In this document: piece after piece, positions 24,113 through 27,548 of the stretch | Position numbering within the stretch: position 1 is the first letter of the stretch | Layout: every line of letters begins with the position of its first letter | NCBI RefSeq assembly: GCF_004762035.2 | Contig: NZ_SIJK02000037.1 | Span: 1 to 48,537, forward strand | Length of the DNA: 48,537 nucleotides | DNA from: Candidatus Chloroploca mongolica | GTDB taxonomy: Bacteria; Chloroflexota; Chloroflexia; Chloroflexales; Chloroflexaceae | Reading direction: 5' to 3' | Notes under the pieces: model-generated | Told to the model about the DNA's origin: nothing | Databases searched by the model: none | Seen by the model: the letters and a program-made list of their open reading frames with translations, nothing else | Translations under genes and position numbers: made by a program

Positions 24113-24117
24113 GCTTG

Positions 24118-25623
24118 ATGGTGCGCACCTCCCAGGCAACGAAACCAACCATTATTGTTGGCGCAGGACTCGGTGGCCTCGCTGCAGCGATTCGCCTCGC
24201 TGCACAAGGCCACCGCGTGCTGATCCTCGAGAAGAATGCTCGCGTCGGTGGCAAGCTCAATCTCGTCACTGACCAGGGCTATACCTTTGATACGGGGCCT
24301 TCATTGCTCACCATGCCCTGGGTCATCACGGAACTTTTTGCTGCGGCTGGTCGCCAGGTTGATGCGTATCTGCACCTTGAACAGATCGAGCCGACCTGCC
24401 GCTATCAGTGGCCCGATGGCACGTCATTCAACGCCTGGCAACGCTTGCCTCAGTTGATCCAGGAGATCCAGCACCTCGCCCCCGCTGATGTGACCGGTTT
24501 CTTTCGCTTTCTGGCCCATACGTCGCAGATATATGATGCGGTGGCCGATAATTTTTTGCTCAAACCCTTCGATGGTCTGCGTGAACTGATCACCCCTCGC
24601 CTGGTGCGGGATGGCCCACGCATTGATGCGCTGCGGAGTGTCGATGCCGCGGTGCGTTCGTTCTTCCGTAGCCCGTATCTGCGCCAGGTCTTCAATCGCT
24701 ATGCTACATACAATGGCTCTTCGCCCTATCTCTCACCGGCAACCTTCAATGTCATTGCTTATATCGAAATGGCCGAGGGCGGTTGGTATGTACGCGGTGG
24801 CATGTATGCCCTCGCGGTCGCCCTGCAACGCCTCGCTGAAGAACTGGGCGTCGAAATACGCTGCAATAGTCCAGTCGCCGAGATTCTCGAGCACGACGGT
24901 GCAGCAATGGGTGTGCGCCTCGCCGATGGTGAGGTGCTCTGGGCGCAGCAGGTCGTTGTCAATGCCGATCCACGCTATGCGTATCAGGCGCTCTTGCCTG
25001 GGCAAACTCGCATAGCCCGTCAACTGGCCCGCCTCGAACCATCGTGCAGCGGTTTCGTGCTTTTTCTGGGCATCAAACGAGTCTACGAACAGTTGGCGCA
25101 TCACAACATTTTCTTTAGCACTGATTATCCTAGTGAATTTGCGGCCATATTTGACAAAGGAGTACCCCCTGTTGATCCGACGATCTACGTGGCGGCCACA
25201 TGCCTTACCGATCCCGGCCACGCCCCTCCCGGCCACATGAATCTCTTTGTCCTCGTCAATGCACCGGTCGTCAACGACCGGGTCTGCTGGCAACGCGAGG
25301 CTGAACCATACCGCGATCTGGTGGTGCGCAAGCTCGAACGGATGGGGCTGACAAACTTGCAGGACGAGATTGTGTACGAGCAGATCTGGACACCGGCAAC
25401 GATCGCAACAATCTACAATGCCGCTGGCGGCGCTATCTATGGCCTCGCCTCGAATAACCGTTTCTCTGCCTTCCTCCGCCCTCCCCTGCGTGCGCGTGGC
25501 CTCCGTCACCTCTATTTTGTTGGTGGTGGCACCCACCCTGGCGGTGGTATTCCCCTGGTGCTGCTCTCTGGCCGTGCTGTGGCCGAACGTGTGCTGGCCG
25601 ATCACGCACATCCTCGCGCATAA
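24118..25623 (+). CDS. CrtI-family carotenoid desaturase/oxygenase-like flavoprotein
   Basis: The 501-residue product has the N-terminal dinucleotide-binding motif IIVGAGLGGLAAAIRLA and the following LILEKNARVGGK. The C-terminal FAD signature is LYFVGGGTHPGGGIPLVLLSG. These define the phytoene desaturase superfamily (CrtI, CrtD, CrtN, CrtNb/CrtP). Members introduce double bonds or oxidise end groups of membrane-bound carotenoids. Which step this one performs cannot be decided from motifs alone. ATG 24118 lies 3 nt after an in-frame TTG, and GTG 24121 is another option; no good ribosome site is visible, so coupling to cpaF is possible. No other carotenoid gene is in the window. Confidence 0.85.
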   Translation: MVRTSQATKPTIIVGAGLGGLAAAIRLAAQGHRVLILEKNARVGGKLNLVTDQGYTFDTGPSLLTMPWVITELFAAAGRQVDAYLHLEQIEPTCRYQWPDGTSFNAWQRLPQLIQEIQHLAPADVTGFFRFLAHTSQIYDAVADNFLLKPFDGLRELITPRLVRDGPRIDALRSVDAAVRSFFRSPYLRQVFNRYATYNGSSPYLSPATFNVIAYIEMAEGGWYVRGGMYALAVALQRLAEELGVEIRCNSPVAEILEHDGAAMGVRLADGEVLWAQQVVVNADPRYAYQALLPGQTRIARQLARLEPSCSGFVLFLGIKRVYEQLAHHNIFFSTDYPSEFAAIFDKGVPPVDPTIYVAATCLTDPGHAPPGHMNLFVLVNAPVVNDRVCWQREAEPYRDLVVRKLERMGLTNLQDEIVYEQIWTPATIATIYNAAGGAIYGLASNNRFSAFLRPPLRARGLRHLYFVGGGTHPGGGIPLVLLSGRAVAERVLADHAHPRA

Positions 25624-25735
25624 ACACTTTACAGTTACAAGAAAACCCCGTGTGCATTCTTTGTGTCTTTTGGCGCATAAGAGGCGTATAATGCCGCAAA
25701 AAAAGGTTTATTATCGTTAAGAGGCGATGAAGGTC

Positions 25736-25764
25736 TTGCATATTTGGCGTAAGAATGCTATGAT
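25736..25764 (+). promoter_or_regulatory. Strong promoter of the candidate ncRNA
   Basis: TTGCAT (25736-25741) is followed by 17 bp and TATGAT (25759-25764). TGC directly before the -10 gives an extended -10 element. The start site would be near 25771. No ribosome site or ORF follows at a useful distance. Confidence 0.65.
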
Positions 25765-25770
25765 CTGGTT

Positions 25771-26405
25771 GAAGCCTCAAGGGAACAGTTCGAAACCAGA
25801 GTACATAAACAATCGAAAACGTGCAACAAATGCACAAGCGCTATCCTCTCGTTGTAAAGAAAAAGGTTTTTTGAGGGGGTTGCGTACGTCAGGGGAAATA
25901 TGATAAGCACTGGGTGTTATCATAGGGAGACTGACAGACAAGCGCTGGATCGCTGACTGAGTGATCAGATGCTCTGCGCGTGCAATGGTTGCCTCTCGTG
26001 GCAAAGCTCAGGCCGTGTGGTACAGAAAGTAAACCCACGCATAGATATGAGCCATACCCGCAAGCAAAAGCTAGCCAGTAGGAATGCTTCTAGTTCCTGC
26101 AGATGGTGGAGCAGCCCAGGGTCTGCTAGAGATAAGTAGATAAGTTTAAGCTACTCAACGGGTCGATCACATACCCTTGAGGCATCAAGTAAGGTTGGGT
26201 TTGCACGTCGGCAATCAGAAGGGAACTGAACGAAGGGTGTATTTCTAGGGGAACTTGTACGTATGACGGAAGCTCGGTAAGCTGAACGTACGTTGGAGTC
26301 TCTCGGATCTTGCACGCACGTTGGAACTTTTGGTATCGGTCGTTACGTGAAATACAAAGCTTGTTAATTCAGTGCAAAGCCGGAGGAAGTCCCTCCGGCT
26401 TTTGC
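25771..26405 (+). ncRNA. Candidate large structured non-coding RNA, about 630 nt
   Basis: A promoter and a terminator bracket about 630 nt with no ORF but dense pairing. GTGCA/TGCAC pairs at 25821-25835. AGCGCT at 25837-25842 can pair with AGCGCT at 25941-25946, closing a three-way junction. Inside it are CCTCTC with GAGGGG (25845-25850 with 25873-25878) and GTCAG/CTGAC (25888-25892 with 25931-25935). The latter extends through a symmetric GGGAAA/GGGAGA internal loop into TATGATAA/TTATCATA. Further hairpins are 25948-25966, 25989-26004, 26014-26039, 26160-26176 and 26257-26291, the last pairing GTACGT with ACGTAC around an inner AGCT pair. I found no tmRNA, RNase P RNA, SRP RNA or group II intron domain V signature. 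The length is in the range of large ornate RNAs such as ROOL, GOLLD or OLE. Structure and identity are inference. Confidence 0.5.
26374..26405 (+). terminator. Intrinsic terminator of the candidate ncRNA
   Basis: AAAGCCGGAGG (26376-26386) pairs with CCTCCGGCTTT (26392-26402) around a 5-nt loop, and the stem can extend to flanking GC pairs. TTTT follows the right arm on the plus strand. It lies about 35 nt beyond the fabD stop and may also end the minus-strand fab transcript. Confidence 0.75.
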
Positions 26406-26440
26406 CGTCACACGTCTATGACAAGAACGGCGCTGCGCTT

Positions 26441-27403
26441 TCAGTCCGACTCGCGGTCAAGGGCAAAGGCACGGACATCATCACTCGTGCTGAGGTTGAT
26501 CAACCGGGTGTTGGGAGCGATCCGCCGGACAAGCCCGGTAAGTGCTTTGCCCGGGCCCAACTCAAGAAAGGCTGAGACGCCATCCTGCACCATGCGCTGT
26601 ACCGACGCAATCCAGCGTACCGGGGCCACCACCTGAGCAACGGCTTCGTAACGCACCTCGTCCGCCTTGAGCAGCGGCTCAGCCGTAACATTGGCAATCA
26701 ATGGGATGCGCAGATCACGTACACCCACCGAACGAATTGCCCATGCCATGCCATCAGCAGCATGACGCATCAAGGGCGAATGAAAGGCGGCACTGACCCG
26801 CAGCGGCAACACGCGCTTGGCCCCACGAATCTTTGCCAGGATCGAGGCCTGCTCAACGGCGAGGGTGCTGCCACTGATCACCAACTGGTCAGGTGCGTTA
26901 TAGTTGGCAACCACAATCGTCCGTACCGGTTCAGGATGATCGGCAAGCGACGCACTCACTTCCCGGCAAACCTGGTCGAGATCGTCTTCAGGCAACCCAA
27001 TCACCGCAGCCATGCTCCCATCACGGGCCTGGGCCATCAGTTCACCACGCTGCCGCACCAGGCGAACTGCATCGGCAAAATCGAGCGCCCCACCTGCAAC
27101 CAGGGCGGAATATTCCCCAAGACTATGCCCGGCCACAGCAGCTGGCGGCGGTAGCGCCATACCCCGAGCTTCTTCGAGCGACCGCAACACGGCCGTACTC
27201 ATCGTGAGCAGGGCTGGCTGTGCATTCTCGGTCGCCATTAATACATTCTCAGGACCCTCGAAACAGAGACGACTCAGTGCGAACCCAAGCACATCATCAG
27301 CCTCATCAAAGACTGCCCGCGCCGCAGGCGATTGATCATAGAGATCCCGCCCCATTCCCACTATTTGTGAGCCCTGCCCCGGAAAAATCCATGCCTGTGT
27401 CAT
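26441..27403 (-). CDS. fabD: Malonyl-CoA:acyl-carrier-protein transacylase
   Basis: Type II fatty-acid synthesis enzyme of 320 residues that loads malonyl from CoA onto ACP. FPGQGSQ opens the protein. The nucleophile elbow is GHSLGEYSAL with Ser94. AAFHSPLM carries the catalytic His near residue 205, and GPGKALTGLVRR closes the fold. ATG 27403 gives the normal family start; the longer frame adds 27 unrelated residues. It is the last gene of the minus-strand block, 145 nt after fabH, and faces the ncRNA terminator. Confidence 0.95.
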   Translation of the reverse strand: MTQAWIFPGQGSQIVGMGRDLYDQSPAARAVFDEADDVLGFALSRLCFEGPENVLMATENAQPALLTMSTAVLRSLEEARGMALPPPAAVAGHSLGEYSALVAGGALDFADAVRLVRQRGELMAQARDGSMAAVIGLPEDDLDQVCREVSASLADHPEPVRTIVVANYNAPDQLVISGSTLAVEQASILAKIRGAKRVLPLRVSAAFHSPLMRHAADGMAWAIRSVGVRDLRIPLIANVTAEPLLKADEVRYEAVAQVVAPVRWIASVQRMVQDGVSAFLELGPGKALTGLVRRIAPNTRLINLSTSDDVRAFALDRESD

Positions 27404-27548
27404 AGAGATGCCACTGCACCTTTCATAGGTTTTGGTGACCCACACACAAAAACGCAAAGGTTCAGACCGTGGGCGTAAGCACACTGGACTGACAACTTTG
27501 CGTCATTGCGTTTCGGATCGTCAAACAATGCCTGCGAATAATCCCGCC

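Follow-up and report, generated by a model that had tools for sequence, protein, structure and literature searches.

A large structured noncoding RNA (ncRNA) is almost certainly encoded between crtI and fabD in Candidatus Chloroploca mongolica. The window, by which we mean the whole stretch of DNA that was analysed, comprises 48,537 nt and corresponds to positions 1 to 48,537 of the forward strand of contig NZ_SIJK02000037.1. The initial annotation had read the gap between the two genes as an undescribed large structured ncRNA, and this reading is supported by homologues in related genomes, by base pairs that are kept among them and by the finding that no known Rfam family spans the region. 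With a probability of roughly 0.75, we take the locus to be a free-standing gene of a new family of trans-acting structured RNAs, which would most likely form the core of a ribonucleoprotein (RNP) in analogy to OLE RNA.

Few large, structurally complex ncRNAs of bacteria are known and the functions of several are still open, while the literature searched holds little work on noncoding RNA in the Chloroflexota. The RNA family appears to be new, and large orphan RNAs as a type have precedents. No description of such an RNA was found in the open literature searched, from which subscription journals are mostly excluded, so that absence from print is unproven. The RNA is found in cultured organisms, Chloroflexus among them; its structure can be tested, its promoter has a conserved element and a paralogue exists in nature. 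A new lineage is thereby opened in which to ask what large ornate RNAs are for.

Genomic setting and control signals

In the window, a gene for a TadA-type ATPase is followed by crtI, a gap of 817 bp and fabD on the opposite strand (Table 1). The length of the gap agrees with the initial annotation, as crtI ends at 25623 and the last base of the fabD stop codon, seen from the plus strand, lies at 26441, and so does its lower GC content, which is 0.45-0.50 in 400-nt windows inside the gap compared to 0.56-0.62 in the flanking kilobase.

Table 1. Features of the RNA locus and its neighbours, in window coordinates
Feature	Position	Strand	Basis
crtI-family phytoene desaturase gene, upstream neighbour	24115..25623	+	TIGR02734, 441 bits
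Conserved upstream inverted repeat, ATCGTTAA-N4-CGATNAA	25713..25731	+	aligned in homologues
Predicted sigma70-type promoter: TTGCAT, 17 nt, extended TGC-TATGAT	25736..25764	+	sequence
Predicted ncRNA, about 633 nt	25771..26403	+	BLASTN homologues and covariance model R1
P1, 5' strand, GCCUCAAGGG	25774..25783	+	pairs with 26174-26183
Helix P2 (25823-25829 with 25986-25992) and enclosed domain	25823..25992	+	pair counts
Helix P6, symmetric purine internal loop, hairpin P7	25884..25939	+	pair counts
Helix P8, most conserved hairpin	25941..25973	+	pair counts
3' half of the core, helices P9-P13	25994..26132	+	pair counts (helices 12-18)
P1, 3' strand, CCCUUGAGGC, closes the core domain	26174..26183	+	pair counts
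Variable 3' tail	26184..26375	+	reading of aligned tails
Predicted intrinsic terminator hairpin with TTTT	26376..26403	+	sequence
fabD, convergent downstream neighbour	26441..27484	-	TIGR00128, 321 bits

The promoter letters named in the initial annotation are present, with TTGCAT at 25736-25741, TATGAT at 25759-25764, 17 nt between them and TGC before TATGAT; transcription would start near 25771, as judged from the position of these elements. The unit as a whole begins slightly upstream of the coordinates given at first, with the inverted repeat at 25713-25731, the half-sites of which are TTATCGT and ACGATAA and the centre of which would lie at about -49 if the start is 25771. A regular expression for this repeat matches in 43 of the 44 loci of the main RNA, and the positions of both the promoter and the repeat are kept in relatives when the homologue alignments are inspected by eye. 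The best -35 hexamer begins with TTG in all 44 members, 16-17 nt from the -10 element, a count that is biased towards success by taking the best hexamer within 15-19 nt of the -10 element.

The repeat is probably the binding site of a dimeric regulator. A regulon was considered and rejected: with at most one mismatch allowed, a single site each is present in the own genome, G001 and G027, one-mismatch sites are few in other places as well, and a reversed control pattern gives 0-2 sites per genome. As the repeat occurs once and the reversed control twice in the own genome, there is no support for a wider regulon. A second exact site was seen in G029, where it adjoins repeated sequence.

At the other end of the unit, the strong GC hairpin running into TTTT was found as described, with a stem formed by 26376-26386 and 26392-26402. 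The script used for hairpins always returns some best hairpin and hence is no test of terminator conservation; no convincing terminator hairpin was seen in several members, e.g. L024, L025, L066, L067 and L076.

In 41 of the 44 members, crtI is found upstream in the same orientation, and 11 have fabD on the other strand at a distance of no more than 400 nt. The three members without crtI (L012, L013 and L015) keep the RNA, the promoter and the upstream repeat. In L013, the -10 element comes 395 nt after the end of the TadA-type ATPase gene, the gene found ahead of crtI in the window, with no crtI between; other frames, permease-like and rhodanese-like by eye, are found upstream in L012 and L015. 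In about 36 of the 44 members (a crude count of longest frames, tallied by eye), the larger of the frames downstream runs on the other strand, and it is therefore unlikely that the RNA is the leader of a downstream gene. A cis-regulatory leader or riboswitch, which would sit just upstream of a co-oriented gene, was rejected for the window, where fabD is convergent; in L065 and L012, a co-oriented frame lies 358 and 556 nt beyond P1, respectively. Two genomes of the family that contains Roseiflexus have SAM riboswitches close to the RNA locus (L066:943-1078 and L069:1180-1288, with 82.7 and 92 bits).

Secondary structure and compensatory changes

The initial annotation had described about 600 nt of hairpin-rich sequence, and the folding energies bear this out. 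Positions 25765-26405 fold at -219.8 kcal/mol compared to -193.7 +/- 5.5 kcal/mol for shuffled sequences (z -4.75, with none of 20 shuffles as good), and positions 25771-26196 give a z of -3.99 with none of 100 shuffles as good.

A consensus structure was obtained with RNAalifold from 33 members of the window's family; 101 pairs were given, of which nine were removed before counting, namely two weak helices with six pairs and three single pairs. The remaining 92 pairs were evaluated in A3, a sequence-only alignment of 42 sequences taken from the 44 loci of the main RNA. L076 and L078 carry long inserts and were used neither for A3 nor for counting pairs or testing on trees, and the four paralogue loci were kept apart; of two loci from one genome, L023 entered the alignment A1 and L057 was used afterwards. 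In A3, 88.1% of the 3784 cells are paired, compared to 75.5% with shuffled partners and 34-40% with the structure slid by 1-3 columns, a comparison in which the structure is favoured over the slid controls because it was derived from 33 of the same sequences and is not independent of them. In the central alignment alone, 96.2% are paired. Two helices are weak, with 63.7% and 76.2% of cells paired.

The expectation that homologues would respect the proposed pairs was borne out by the changes at paired positions. Both sides have changed in 71 of the 92 pairs, and 554 cells are changed on both sides compared to 183.7 in shuffles. Parsimony on a tree built from unpaired columns only gives 205 compensatory events compared to 20-34 in the slid controls, with at least one such event in 66 pairs (16-24 in the controls) and 196 pair-breaking events; a tree from all columns gives 191 events versus 17-34. 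A strict all-column covariation test was largely negative, with no pair at E<0.05 among 33 sequences and one among 42. When pairs that are at least 90% standard were counted in a follow-up, 12 versus 1.7 lay above a score of 30, four versus 0.13 above 40 and 66 versus 53 above 15 with 42 sequences, and six versus 0.2 lay above 30 and 66 versus 64 above 15 with the 33 family members, so that the excess is confined to high scores and is small below them. We read the weak outcome of the strict test as a sign that its null has little power when sequences are few.

The core, counted from the putative start site through P1, is 354-425 nt long in 42 of the 44 members and reaches 508 and 698 nt in the two with long inserts. 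Its closing helix P1 is the clearest case of a compensated helix: the window has GCCUCAAGGG and CCCUUGAGGC, Chloroflexus-type members have GCCUCGAGAG and CUCUCGAGGC, and L069 has GCUCCAAGAU and AUCUUGGAGC. In this helix, 96.0% of cells are paired and both sides have changed in seven of ten pairs (e.g. GC in 20, AU in 19 and UA in one sequence). Both-side changes occur in all seven pairs of P2 (79.5% of cells paired), in four of the seven pairs of P6 (99.3%) and in all five pairs of P7 (86.2%). The most conserved hairpin, P8, has 13 pairs, of which seven changed on both sides, and 98.0% of its cells are paired, while P9-P13 have 76-93% of cells paired per helix and both-side changes in 25 of 31 pairs.

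The purine internal loop consists of GGGAAA (25893-25898) facing GGGAGA (25925-25930) and is present in both families that carry the RNA as well as in the paralogue. Judging from its letters, this loop could form a stack of tandem G-A pairs and act as a binding or tertiary contact site. In the window's family, several unpaired segments show wide conservation, e.g. UGUAAAG and GCAAAAGC.

The tail that follows P1 is far more variable. In the window it reads, by eye, as degenerate copies of a unit of about 30 nt (GUACGCACGUCGG-n-AACC...GGAACU). In the relative L005 (L005:2002-2116), it is a 30-bp tandem array of 3.8 copies; TRF reports no such tandem array in the window. The number of tail units seems, again by eye, to vary between close relatives. 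Between P1 and the hairpin lie 46-64 nt in Chloroflexus-type members, 194 nt in the window and roughly 100-230 nt in several other genera; of the six Roseiflexus-type members (L062-L065, L067 and L068), five have 10-14 nt there. L004 to L007 were left out of this comparison because the script had picked a later hairpin.

Distribution

A BLASTN search with positions 25700-26420 found matches in 27 of 61 genomes, the own genome included. The sole match outside the two families that carry the RNA, in G049, spans 38 nt with an E of 0.005 and is not confirmed by R1, the covariance model built after the central part of the RNA (194 nt, or about 195 nt) had been aligned from 26 homologues. Within the order Chloroflexales, R1 matches 45 of 82 genomes in 18 of 34 genera. 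By our own tally, these are 35 of 41 genomes in the window's family (f1) and ten of 26 in the second family, which contains Roseiflexus (f4), with none of nine in f3 and none of six in f2. In a sample of the phylum, R1 matches 28 of 400 genomes, all of which belong to f1 or f4; as the filters of this search were strict and six candidates were scored for each genome among the matches listed, distant relatives could escape it. The gene is single-copy; a second R1 match of 18 bits in G035 is taken as chance.

No R1 match was found in six of the 41 genomes of f1 and 16 of the 26 of f4. The best crtI loci were checked in 17 of 19 R1-negative genomes and none of the 17 matches R1, the contig of L101 ending at crtI. 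The RNA is therefore dispensable in some lineages. A hand tally places a reaction-centre gene in 42 of the 45 genomes that carry the RNA (it is missing in G004, G045 and G072) and in 21 of the 37 genomes in which no RNA was matched, and a strict link to phototrophy was rejected as inexact on these counts.

When about 85,000 species were scanned with a pattern, 49 stretches were returned, of which 28 read as Chloroflexota, including one that is titled Gracilibacteria; the other 21 reach at most 19.3 bits with R1 and are taken as chance. The contig titled Candidatus Gracilibacteria (L137, contig C158 of the f1 genome G018) carries the RNA at 123.8 bits, and its title is probably wrong. No BLASTN match was found in phages or plasmids, and the reading as a phage or plasmid RNA was rejected. 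Two viral contigs carry the motif, and L192 alone of the two matches R1. This IMG/VR contig has the RNA at L192:6602-6796 with 104.9 bits, near the contig end; the adjoining sequence looks, by eye, like a piece of a bacterial gene, and the contig is probably a chimera or a host fragment.

A paralogue in Roseiflexus

Four genomes of g23, the Roseiflexus genus, show a further R1 match at a second place, with 40-44 bits. The paralogue found there is shorter, with about 340 nt, occurs in the Roseiflexus genus and one neighbour genus, and is divergent from an SDR-purL pair (loci L071, L072, L073, L074 at about 3000, L195, L198 and L199). On inspection by eye, it shows a promoter-like element of its own, a helix that closes it and the purine loop known from the main RNA, and CCGCACCUGGC and GCCAGGUGCGG read as a counterpart of P2. 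A second model, R2, built from four of the g23 paralogue loci, matches eight of 82 genomes, seven of them strongly at 113.7-170.8 bits (all six of g23 and one of g27), and all seven strong places adjoin the same SDR and purL genes. Three genomes give R2 matches at the main RNA, too, with 35-40 bits. The reciprocal hits are weak; given these matches, the RNA family has at least two branches. One genome of the second family (G054) carries the paralogue only.

Coding potential and known RNA families

The statement that the gap has no open reading frame does not hold literally, as frames of 49-75 aa lie wholly inside it when a limit of 40 aa is used, but it does hold in the sense that none of them behaves as coding. 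At the best conserved start, the three codon positions change equally (0.42, 0.43 and 0.40), and the peptides can be as short as 4 aa or as long as 78 aa. Of 449 indels relative to L001, 376 are not multiples of three. On these grounds a protein-coding gene was rejected.

Rfam searches with covariance models found no known family across the region and no match at gathering scores in the window. At E<=10, positions 25600-26500 gave only rli61 (17.9 of 50 bits) and CLRN1-AS1 (14.9 of 48). Six matches at E<=5 among 20 homologue loci all fall below the cut-off, the best being mir-7180 at the tail hairpin (32.2 of 78 bits), and nine further loci gave two SAM riboswitches off the RNA and sR28 in the tail region (27.8 of 39 bits); none of these is a credible match over the RNA. 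Rfam 15 holds models for OLE, ROOL and GOLLD, and neither these nor its other families match the window at gathering scores. The likeness to these three classes that the initial annotation had drawn thus stands for size and complexity and fails for homology.

OLE RNA is described as about 600 nt long with an intricate secondary structure and highly conserved stretches (PMC9723947, PMC12054373), traits that the new RNA shares, but OLE is found mostly in the Bacillota and forms a membrane-associated RNP, and the locus of the new RNA, which is found so far in two families of the Chloroflexales, has no Rfam match. ROOL and GOLLD form homo-oligomers by cryo-EM (PMC12286853); they resemble the new RNA as large orphan structured RNAs of bacteria, and the new RNA differs in having neither an Rfam match nor a BLASTN match in phages or plasmids. 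The raiA-motif RNA (ModT) is likewise a conserved structured noncoding RNA of bacteria (PMC11706538), and has no Rfam match at the new locus. The Chloroflexi-1 motif (RF01698), a candidate RNA named from Chloroflexus aggregans (PMC2864571), is absent from the Rfam scans of the window and the homologue loci. Y RNA was also considered and rejected: TROVE (Ro60) matches in five of 41 genomes, the window's not among them, and one of these five (G023) carries the RNA.

Possible function of the RNA

Trans-acting structural RNAs are marked by a conserved promoter, a free-standing position, strong structure, conserved unpaired purines and the lack of a reading frame. The same features at this locus point to an RNA that very probably acts in trans; the further step, by analogy with OLE-type RNAs, that it is the scaffold or core of an RNP has about an even chance. 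In such a model, transcription would be driven by the promoter together with the upstream inverted repeat, the putative regulator site, and end at the RNA's own terminator. The transcript would fold into a core closed by the long-range helix P1, with its purine-rich internal loop and invariant unpaired bases presented from this core and a variable 3' tail added in some genera, and would most likely work as the RNA core of an OLE-type RNP. No partner gene was seen to accompany the RNA. More tentatively, such an RNP machine, or else a ribozyme, may have been kept since the divergence of f1 and f4 in largely phototrophic filamentous bacteria, with two versions in Roseiflexus and with the tail repeats of some genera setting a tunable number of binding sites.

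The main rivals of the RNP reading are a base-pairing regulator and a ribozyme. A trans-acting regulatory RNA could pair with target mRNAs through the conserved loops, a reading favoured by the widely conserved unpaired UGUAAAG and GCAAAAGC segments and by the upstream repeat, which suggests regulation, but the size and the multi-branched, compensated architecture go beyond what antisense regulators, by general knowledge, usually need, and we consider this unlikely. Invariant unpaired purines and a complex fold would also suit a catalytic RNA that requires no protein, and size, structure and conservation have been called consistent with ribozyme function for OLE (PMC11332333); as the new RNA matches no Rfam family, known ribozymes included as far as Rfam covers them, this alternative is quite unlikely. 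The position of crtI upstream on the same strand in nearly all members would fit a 3' UTR or a stability element that acts in cis on the crtI mRNA, but the RNA has promoter signals of its own, the paralogue in Roseiflexus is located elsewhere, and the three members that keep the RNA without crtI argue against a 3' UTR, which makes this reading improbable.

A very divergent housekeeping RNA, e.g. tmRNA or RNase P RNA, would likewise be large, structured and single-copy, and the own assembly yields no tmRNA above the cut-off. However, the initial annotation had seen no signature of either RNA, in line with ARAGORN, which finds no tmRNA in the window, and with the Rfam models, neither of which matches at the locus. 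In all five relatives tested, a tmRNA is present at 170-182 bits and elsewhere than the RNA locus, so its lack in the own genome is probably due to an assembly gap. RNase P RNA was rejected as an identity, as the sole match of the genome covers the whole model on another contig (C149:115907-116365, 55.2 bits). A hidden housekeeping RNA is thus barely conceivable.

The RNase P RNA match, at 55.2 bits, lies below the Rfam gathering score of 100, and standard annotation could miss it.
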